Below are positions 964-2,890 of a stretch of 64,000 nt of DNA, piece by piece. Source of the stretch: SAR116 cluster bacterium AG-337-N21 (GTDB lineage: Bacteria; Pseudomonadota; Alphaproteobacteria; Puniceispirillales; Marisalimonadaceae). The translations under genes and the position numbers were made by a program. Every line of letters starts with the position of its first letter. Position 1 is the stretch's first letter. The notes under the pieces were generated by a model, which saw only the letters and a list, made by a program, of their open reading frames with translations, was not told the DNA's origin and ran no database searches. Where the stretch lies: positions 41,455-105,454 of the forward strand of contig QBZZ01000005.1 in the NCBI GenBank assembly GCA_003282145.1, written 5' to 3'.

Positions 964-1995
964 TCATTTATAGTTTCTAACAATGTCAATAACTTTTCTG
1001 ACATTTTTAATTTTACAATCTGGAGTTAATCCGTGACCAACGCTAAAAATGAATTTATTATCTTTCATAATATTCAAAATAGAAAGAACAATATTTTCTA
1101 AATGACTACTATTAAATGGAATTAGTGAAGCCGGATCAAGATTTCCCTGGATGGCGATTGAAGAATTCAGATTTTTGATTGCCCAATTTAAATTAACAGT
1201 CCAGTCCAGGGCTATACAATTAACATTGCTTTCATATGAATAATCTATTAGAGAAGAACCCGCTTTAAAAGGCAGGCCAATTATTGGTTTTGTAACATTT
1301 TTTGATTTTAACATACTAATAATATTTGCTGTTGGGTCAATGGCACATTTTCTGAAAAATTCACTAGGTATCATATGAGACCAAGAATCAAATAACATTA
1401 ATACATCTGCTCCTGCATTTGCTTGCATTTCAAGTTTCTCAGCAACATAAATAGATAATGTATCTATTAATTCCATGAACCATTTATTTGAATCCCAGAG
1501 AGCTTTTCTTGTATTAATAAAATCTTTACTACTTTGACCTTCAATCATATAACAAGCTAGTGTCCACGGAGCGCCAGCAAAACCAATTAAACTTGTAGAT
1601 TGTGGTAGTTCTTTTCTTAAAATTGATATTGATGTCTTTAAAGGCTCAAGTTTTTGTGAAATATTGATGTTTTTCAAGACTTTTGTTTCATTAGGAACCA
1701 TTGGTTTTAAAGTTGGCCCAAATCCTCCAATAAAGTTTAGTTCTCTATTCATTGCCCACGGTATCATCAGTATATCCGAAAAAACAATGGCAGCGTTTAA
1801 ATCATAATATTTTAAAGGCAGCTTTGTGCTTTCAATAATTAATTTTGTATTCAAGCAAAAATTTATAAAGTTATCTGATTTTTTTCTTATTTCAAAATAT
1901 TTTGGAATATGTCTGCCTGCTTGTCTCAAAAACCAAATTGGTATTCCAAGATATTCATTTCTAAAAAACTTACTCAAATCATCATTCATGATCAT
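964..1995 (-). CDS. hemE: Uroporphyrinogen III decarboxylase
   Basis: 343 residues, normal for HemE, which removes four acetate carboxyls from uroporphyrinogen III to give coproporphyrinogen III in the cytoplasm. The N-terminal motif IWFLRQAGRHIPKY carries the substrate-binding arginines. FSDILMIP supplies the catalytic aspartate, YMIEGQSSKDF the conserved tyrosine, and FSVGHGLTPD the C-terminal histidine. Two ATGs compete (1995 and 1989) and differ by two residues. It is transcribed away from coaE across a 280-bp gap that I read as the replication origin, and it probably shares a transcript with hemJ and rho. Confidence 0.95.
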   Translation of the reverse strand: MIMNDDLSKFFRNEYLGIPIWFLRQAGRHIPKYFEIRKKSDNFINFCLNTKLIIESTKLPLKYYDLNAAIVFSDILMIPWAMNRELNFIGGFGPTLKPMVPNETKVLKNINISQKLEPLKTSISILRKELPQSTSLIGFAGAPWTLACYMIEGQSSKDFINTRKALWDSNKWFMELIDTLSIYVAEKLEMQANAGADVLMLFDSWSHMIPSEFFRKCAIDPTANIISMLKSKNVTKPIIGLPFKAGSSLIDYSYESNVNCIALDWTVNLNWAIKNLNSSIAIQGNLDPASLIPFNSSHLENIVLSILNIMKDNKFIFSVGHGLTPDCKIKNVRKVIDIVRNYK

Positions 1996-2024
1996 TTTCT
2001 TTATTTTAAATAATAATTTAAATT

Positions 2025-2039
2025 TAGTAGTAGTAGTAG
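2025..2039 (+). repeat. (TAG)5 trinucleotide array, candidate DnaA-trio element
   Basis: Five perfect tandem TAG units. Read on the minus strand, the order is DnaA-like box TTATCAACA, a 12-nt spacer, (CTA)5, then a nearly pure A+T stretch toward hemE. That matches the described DnaA-trio layout (consensus 3'-[G/A]A[T/A]-5' on the bound strand, starting a short distance from a DnaA box and leading into the unwinding region). A plain microsatellite is the alternative. Confidence 0.55.
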
Positions 2040-2051
2040 TGTTTAATACTT

Positions 2052-2060
2052 TGTTGATAA
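2052..2060 (-). promoter_or_regulatory. DnaA-box-like site next to the TAG array
   Basis: The minus strand reads TTATCAACA, one mismatch from the TTATNCACA consensus. It points toward the TAG array 12 nt away. A partly matching inverted copy, TTGTCAACAA, follows at 2077-2086. Confidence 0.45.
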
Positions 2061-2128
2061 TTTTTTGTTCAAGTAATTGTCAACAAGTTTTTAATATATA
2101 ACTATTTTATATATAATGATATTTAGCT

Positions 2129-2137
2129 TTATTCACA
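2129..2137 (+). promoter_or_regulatory. DnaA box, consensus match
   Basis: TTATTCACA fits TTATNCACA at every position. It lies inside the hemE-coaE gap, just after the A+T-rich block at 2088-2125. A nine-base motif can arise by chance in A+T-rich DNA, so its weight comes from its position. Confidence 0.5.
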
Positions 2138-2275
2138 ATTTATAATTTTGTTTATTTGTTTTATTCAGATGTTGTTAAAGTAAGAATAAATGCATAGTCT
2201 ACTATTATAAAATAATTTACTATTAGATTAGGCTTTTTTTGTTAACAGCTTATTTACAGGTGTAATAGATCATTA

Positions 2276-2890
2276 ATGATAATCATAGGTATTACAGGTT
2301 CTATAGGGATGGGTAAATCGACTATTGCCAACATGTTAAAGCAATTTAAGATACCTGTTTTTGATTCAGACAAAGAGGTTAGAGACATATTAGAAAATAA
2401 TAATGCAGTAAAAAAACAGATATTTAATTTATGGCCTGATGTAATTTTAACTGAAACAAACAAAAAAGAAATAGATAAAAATTTATTAAGTAGAAAAATA
2501 TTTGGTAACATAAAACATAGAAAGACTTTGGAGAGTATTATTCACCCAAAAGTTAAAGAAAGAAGGAATATTTTTATTAAGAATGTAGAGAAATCACCTA
2601 TAGTCGCACTTGATGTTCCTTTGTTATATGAGACAGGTACTGATAGAGTTTGTGATGATGTATTTTTAGTCTACACAAATGAAGAAACTCAGAAAAAGAG
2701 AGTTTTAGCAAGATCTAGCATGACTCAAAAAAAACTAGATCTTATTAAAAAGGCTCAATGGAATGATCAGAAGAAAAGAGATAAAGGTCCATACTTAGTG
2801 ACTACCTCTTATGGAAAATTTGTCAGTTTTGCTATAATAACTAGTTATTTAATAGCTATAATCTTTAAAAAGAAGATTTTAAAGTTATGA
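2276..2890 (+). CDS. coaE: Dephospho-CoA kinase
   Basis: 204 residues, the usual CoaE size. It phosphorylates the 3'-hydroxyl of dephospho-CoA, the last step of coenzyme A synthesis. The P-loop GSIGMGKST lies at residues 8-16. VFDSDKEVRDIL gives the conserved substrate-binding aspartate region, VALDVPLLYE the lid and binding motif, and RVLARSSMTQKKL the C-terminal helix. It is the first gene on the plus-strand side of the candidate origin and overlaps dnaQ by 4 bp (ATGA), so the two are probably co-translated. The neighbours often seen before coaE in relatives (a DUF299 protein, maf, aroE) are not here. Confidence 0.93.
   Translation: MIIIGITGSIGMGKSTIANMLKQFKIPVFDSDKEVRDILENNNAVKKQIFNLWPDVILTETNKKEIDKNLLSRKIFGNIKHRKTLESIIHPKVKERRNIFIKNVEKSPIVALDVPLLYETGTDRVCDDVFLVYTNEETQKKRVLARSSMTQKKLDLIKKAQWNDQKKRDKGPYLVTTSYGKFVSFAIITSYLIAIIFKKKILKL

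Follow-up and report, generated by a model that had tools for sequence, protein, structure and literature searches.

The published rule for DnaA-trios is that the middle base of each triplet must be A on the loading strand and T on the box strand (PMC6727663, a review; PMC8235120), and the published search program hard-wires this middle A by requiring three consecutive 3'-NAN-5' triplets (PMC8287927). In the same study the spacer between box and trio peaked at 10-13 nt with a maximum of 16 nt, 3'-GAT-5' was the commonest trio, and deviant trios without the middle adenine were suspected (Pelliciari et al., 2021; PMC8287927). In the B. subtilis complex, Asn187 and Glu183 make the contacts to the middle A and Arg202 and Glu228 those to the G at the first position, and a B. 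subtilis origin with T in place of the middle A is impaired (PMC10721633). The extended trio of Thermotoga maritima consists of three tandem TAG repeats, which are essential for single-strand binding and unwinding, and the ssDUE motifs of E. coli are TTGT and TTATT (PMC10316083). The arrangement published for Caulobacter and Rickettsia is one in which hemE adjoins the origin (PMC1914354).

Gene context and layout of the array

The stretch of DNA analysed (the window, 64,000 nucleotides of the SAR116-cluster genome G000) carries a triplet array within the hemE–coaE gap, about 30 nt upstream of the hemE start. The gap holds several DnaA boxes and is flanked on the left by a UPF0093 (hemJ-like) gene and hemE, and on the right by coaE and the genes for a DnaQ-type exonuclease, SecB, a Tim44-like protein and an Smr protein. 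The features used below are:

964-1995, minus strand: hemE, uroporphyrinogen decarboxylase (PF01208), on one side of the proposed origin
about 1996-2024: A+T-rich run adjoining the array, with few G/C (by inspection); proposed unwinding region
2025-2039, plus strand: triplet array (TAG)5, proposed DnaA-loading strand, reading 3'-GAT-5' away from the box; phase conserved in 31 species
2040-2051: 12-nt spacer from box to array; 10-14 nt in relatives, in which the spacer bases drift
2052-2060, minus strand: DnaA box TTATCAACA, oriented toward the array and hemE, with a single mismatch to TTATCCACA; box columns with 0-3 changes on the tree
2078-2086, plus strand: DnaA-box-like TTGTCAACA, which pairs with the loading box in inverted orientation; many relatives have TGTGGATAA here
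2129-2137, plus strand: DnaA box TTATTCACA, an exact match to TTATNCACA
2161-2169, plus strand: DnaA-box-like TTATTCAGA, one mismatch
2250-2258, plus strand: DnaA-box-like TTATTTACA, one mismatch
2276-2890, plus strand: coaE, dephospho-CoA kinase (PF01121), on the other side of the proposed origin

Read on the minus strand, the order is TTATCAACA (2060-2052), the spacer AAGTATTAAACA, (CTA)5 (2039-2025) and an A+T run up to hemE. These coordinates are exactly those of the initial annotation, and its description of the site as a DnaA-trio layout agrees with the strand, the polarity, the 12-nt spacing and the adjoining A+T run. A search of the window that tolerated one mismatch gave a single match to the array sequence TAGTAGTAGTAGTAG (mean in shuffles 0.01), and (TAG)5 is likewise unique in the 2.04-Mb genome assembly; of the 55 tandem-repeat rows listed for the window, it is the sole one with a 3-bp period. 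By inspection, TTATT lies at 2001-2005 (plus strand) within the A+T run, a short motif for which a chance match is possible. Most of the other DnaA-box-like sites between 2078 and 2258 are on the plus strand, toward coaE, whereas the loading box faces hemE. Together with the adjacent box it makes up an inverted TGTGGATAA...TTATCCACA pair in many of the relatives.

The window element was compared with the sequence description of the B. subtilis BUS. An adjacent DnaA box with at most two mismatches is represented by TTATCAACA, which has one; a spacer of 0-16 nt (commonly 10-13 nt) by 12 nt in the window and 10-14 nt in the genus; at least three consecutive 3'-NAN-5' triplets by five 3'-GAT-5' units; and a loading strand that runs 3' to 5' away from the box with A+T beyond by the plus strand here, the array being on the other strand in 0/31 genomes of the genus. 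On sequence, the window element can thus be called a DnaA-trio, every BUS sequence criterion having its counterpart.

GC skew along the window's own 105-kb contig was uninformative on the position of the origin. In G011, a relative whose contig is 728 kb long, cumulative GC skew reaches its minimum at 462 kb, from which the curve is nearly flat to the hemE gap at 495 kb; this supports an origin at the hemE gap to within about 35 kb and does not pinpoint it. On that contig (C1, 462-500 kb, loci L186-L187) the near-flat stretch extends for ~35 kb to one side of the gap, with no sharp turn at hemE.

Conservation within the genus

Upstream regions of hemE from 31 species of the genus were compared, all anchored on hemE; the arrays of L047 and G024, which are interrupted or have three units, were read by eye. 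The 31 species share one order, namely a DnaA box facing hemE, 10-14 nt (usually 12–13 nt), about four triplets beginning with C, and A+T. The triplets are CTA, CAA and CAT, with CTT rare. Triplet phase and box spacing are kept in all 31 species while the neighbouring bases drift, which is the pattern that the initial annotation had proposed to look for in related genomes; absence of the repeat or free variation of its phase, named there as counting against a trio, was not encountered among these species. The nearest relative (G021) has a box and array identical to those of the window and different spacer bases. The remark that five identical units stand in a row holds for the window and does not extend to the genus, as only G000 and G021 have the perfect (TAG)5 and most relatives mix CTA, CAA and CAT.

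Anchoring on the box alone was used so that the array was not chosen by its own pattern; a box was recognised in 30 species. In 30/30 of these species the first C, counted from 10 nt downstream of the box onward, lies at 10-16 nt, and C recurs at +3, +6 and +9 in 83, 80 and 80% of them; at the remaining offsets as far as +11 the figure is about 7%. On the hemE protein tree the C columns changed 0, 0, 1 and 1 times, the middle columns 8, 4, 8 and 4 times and the third columns 4-5 times; on the same tree the twelve bases after the array changed 6-13 times and the box 0-3 times. A run of (CWW)4 or longer is present on the hemE strand in 29/31 gaps and on the other strand in 0/31; shuffles predict 0.16. 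Since the C columns are partly ascertained in the counts of tree changes and CWW runs, the box-anchored periodicity is the cleaner test. No correlation was found between array length and number of DnaA boxes, and the origin signal and the hemE signal are therefore not separated by that comparison. Upstream of hemE in G025 (L021), (CAA)4 is kept despite a poor box at the expected distance (TTTTTAACG, four mismatches).

The middle base of the triplet and the DnaA residues

The middle base in the genus is A or T in similar measure. Three consecutive NAN triplets are lacking in any phase from 21/31 arrays, three or more consecutive middle-T triplets are present in 9/31, and the (CAA)4 arrays of G005, G014 and G025 have no A at all on the loading strand. 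On the tree, species whose arrays hold at least two middle-T triplets are interspersed with those that hold one or none, with at least nine changes, which indicates that the array forms interconvert. The published middle-A rule is thus not what these arrays conserve; the triplet truly conserved in the genus is 3'-G[A/T][T/A]-5', in which a middle A is not obligatory. For the genus orthologues, which mostly fail the NAN pattern yet keep position, phase and polarity, the claim is limited to their probably working like a trio.

DnaA proteins were aligned to the B. subtilis DnaA of PDB 8BTG, 30 from the genus and 30 from other Alphaproteobacteria. In this alignment the DnaA of the window genome has Tyr at position 187 and Lys at position 202 and keeps Glu228, Glu183, Lys222 and Ile190. 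The B. subtilis contact residues Asn187 and Arg202 are replaced throughout by Tyr or Phe and by Lys, respectively: position 187 is Tyr in 30/30 genus proteins and Tyr (27) or Phe (3) in the other Alphaproteobacteria, and Lys202, Lys222, Glu183 and Glu228 are identical in 60/60. By homology, the side chains predicted to contact G are kept in kind and the Asn that contacts A is gone, which matches a motif in which G is constant and A is not. Because a change of A to T at the middle base impairs the B. subtilis origin, (CAA)4 would need a different contact. Tyr187 is invariant inside the genus, which therefore offers no test of covariation with the middle base.

Arrays in other Alphaproteobacteria

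A class-wide scan for a box, N10-14 and (CWW)4 matched 12/385 genomes, about the same as the reversed control. This strict pattern is accordingly non-diagnostic outside the genus and a comparison anchored on hemE was needed, although one match (G071) proved to be an array upstream of hemE. Regions upstream of hemE were taken from 73 alphaproteobacterial genomes; a class-level detector that needed a near-perfect box had missed arrays plain by eye and was replaced by a box-independent score for windows with C at every third base, with significance set at p of at most 0.05 against dinucleotide shuffles. A G-anchored array (3'-GNN-5') was significant in 42/73 regions on the expected strand, compared with 8 on the opposite strand, and several loci below the threshold show a visible, interrupted array. 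In the significant windows position 1 is C (for which they were selected), position 2 is A (53%), T (30%) or C (15%) and position 3 is A (79%), so that a middle A on the loading strand is found in only about 30% of triplets; the 30 nt that follow are 81% A+T. Written on the loading strand as 5'-TNG-3', the commonest unit is TTG, then TAG, then TGG. The (CAA)5 form recurs in distant families (G071, G175, G382, G302 and G204).

A second, mirror-image TAG-type array was seen immediately upstream of hemE, on the hemE side of the A+T run, at L267 (G204), L253 (G079), L232 (G167), L158 (G040) and L154 (G039), the arrangement in G204 being (CAA)5-ATATATATATATA-TAGTAGTAGAAG. This mirror-image array, which is absent in the genus of the window, might hold DnaA or a loader on the opposite strand.

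Proposed mechanism and alternative explanations

The array is very probably a loading array of the DnaA-trio type, in a variant form, as judged from its layout and conservation. The reading preferred here, to which we assign a probability of roughly 0.75, is that it serves as the single-strand DnaA-loading site of the chromosomal origin, with the register taken from G and the middle base left free through Tyr/Phe187. DnaA bound to the hemE-facing box at 2052-2060 would pass protomers across the ~12-nt spacer onto the plus strand, where one protomer would take up each TAG triplet, three bases each, and this loading would stretch and open the adjoining A+T run toward hemE. In this lineage, as in Alphaproteobacteria at large, the G nearest the box in each triplet (3'-GNN-5') would be the main guide to the register of DnaA, and the middle base would be free to be A or T (in other relatives also G), because Asn187, which reads the middle A in B. 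subtilis, is replaced here by Tyr or Phe. The sequences themselves show the layout, the conserved phase and spacing, the departure from the middle-A rule and the exchange at residue 187; from these we infer both the binding and strand opening by DnaA and the causal role of Tyr187 in relaxing the motif.

The array lies ~30 nt upstream of the hemE start and was found throughout by anchoring on hemE, and it might thus be a hemE promoter or 5'-leader element, or the site of another duplex-binding regulator, conserved for its place upstream of hemE. However, no promoter-like site was detected on the hemE strand of the gap and there was one weak match on the plus strand, fewer than in shuffles; the distance to the DnaA box is fixed, the polarity is that published for trios, and the distance from array to hemE varies among genomes of the class. 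An element of this kind is considered unlikely, and the promoter reading was rejected on the lack of a promoter-like site on the hemE strand of the gap. Equally improbable is a canonical middle-A DnaA-trio in the window with decayed arrays in the CAA and CAT relatives, which would rely on another part of the origin. In its favour, the five GAT units of the window follow the published rule, and 9/31 genus arrays have at least three consecutive middle-T triplets. Decay would lose the phase, yet the C phase stays fixed in CAA and CAT species too, which argues against decay in the relatives; moreover, at least nine switches between the forms are counted along the tree and (CAA)5 is found again in distant families. 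Slippage homogenisation could account for the perfect identity of five units in G000 and G021, as in a neutral trinucleotide microsatellite, but the arrays keep to about four to five units of heterogeneous content, they are conserved in phase, strand and spacing, and the window has no other triplet array. A neutral microsatellite is therefore very improbable and was rejected, phase and box distance being held across 31 species in which the neighbouring bases drift.

We lean slightly towards extending the loading-site reading to the class, such that the single-strand origin code would differ in Alphaproteobacteria, a G-anchored 5'-TNG-3' replacing the middle-A trio and enabled by the substitution of Asn187 by Tyr or Phe. 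If so, the alphaproteobacterial 5'-TNG-3' array would be a deviant trio as suspected by Pelliciari et al. (2021), and position 187 would be the protein position that may set the middle-base rule. That rule would be lineage-specific if the three-base step and the leading G, without the A, are what is maintained throughout the class, and alphaproteobacterial origins missed or misplaced by middle-A programs could be found by searching for a box followed by C at every third base. The genus arrays would provide a natural mutational series for testing how DnaA reads single-stranded DNA. In the literature searched, which excludes the founding trio paper (Richardson 2016), the sole co-mention of DnaA-trios and Alphaproteobacteria concerns epsilonproteobacterial origins, and the priority of an alphaproteobacterial trio variant is not certain.

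Comparison with known systems

Like the hemE-linked origins of Caulobacter, Rickettsia and Wolbachia, the locus lies beside hemE with an A+T region and DnaA boxes; in the part of the source consulted, DnaA, CtrA and IHF sites are named for those origins and a triplet array is not (PMC1914354). The closest likeness is to the trio and BUS of B. subtilis oriC, with a box, a 10-13 nt spacer, triplets running 3' to 5' away from the box and an A+T run, and the window units are also 3'-GAT-5'. In contrast to the B. subtilis trio, the relatives of the window drop the middle A and keep the first-position G, with Asn187 changed to Tyr or Phe, and unlike in the B. subtilis BUS the partner box (2078-2086) is inverted. 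Tandem TAG units are shared with the extended trio of T. maritima, whose DnaA, however, has Asn at position 187 in the alignment, whose repeats lie beyond another trio and whose boxes differ. The published model for E. coli has IHF bending the DNA and box-bound DnaA folding back onto the single strand, and its ssDUE motifs, unlike the window array, are not a phased triplet array. By inspection, the loading strand of the (CAA)n relatives reads TTGTTG, within which lies the E. coli TTGT (a short motif, for which a chance match is possible); a 5'-TNG-3' code, if confirmed, would be a possible bridge from the TAG trio of B. subtilis to the TTGT motif of E. coli.
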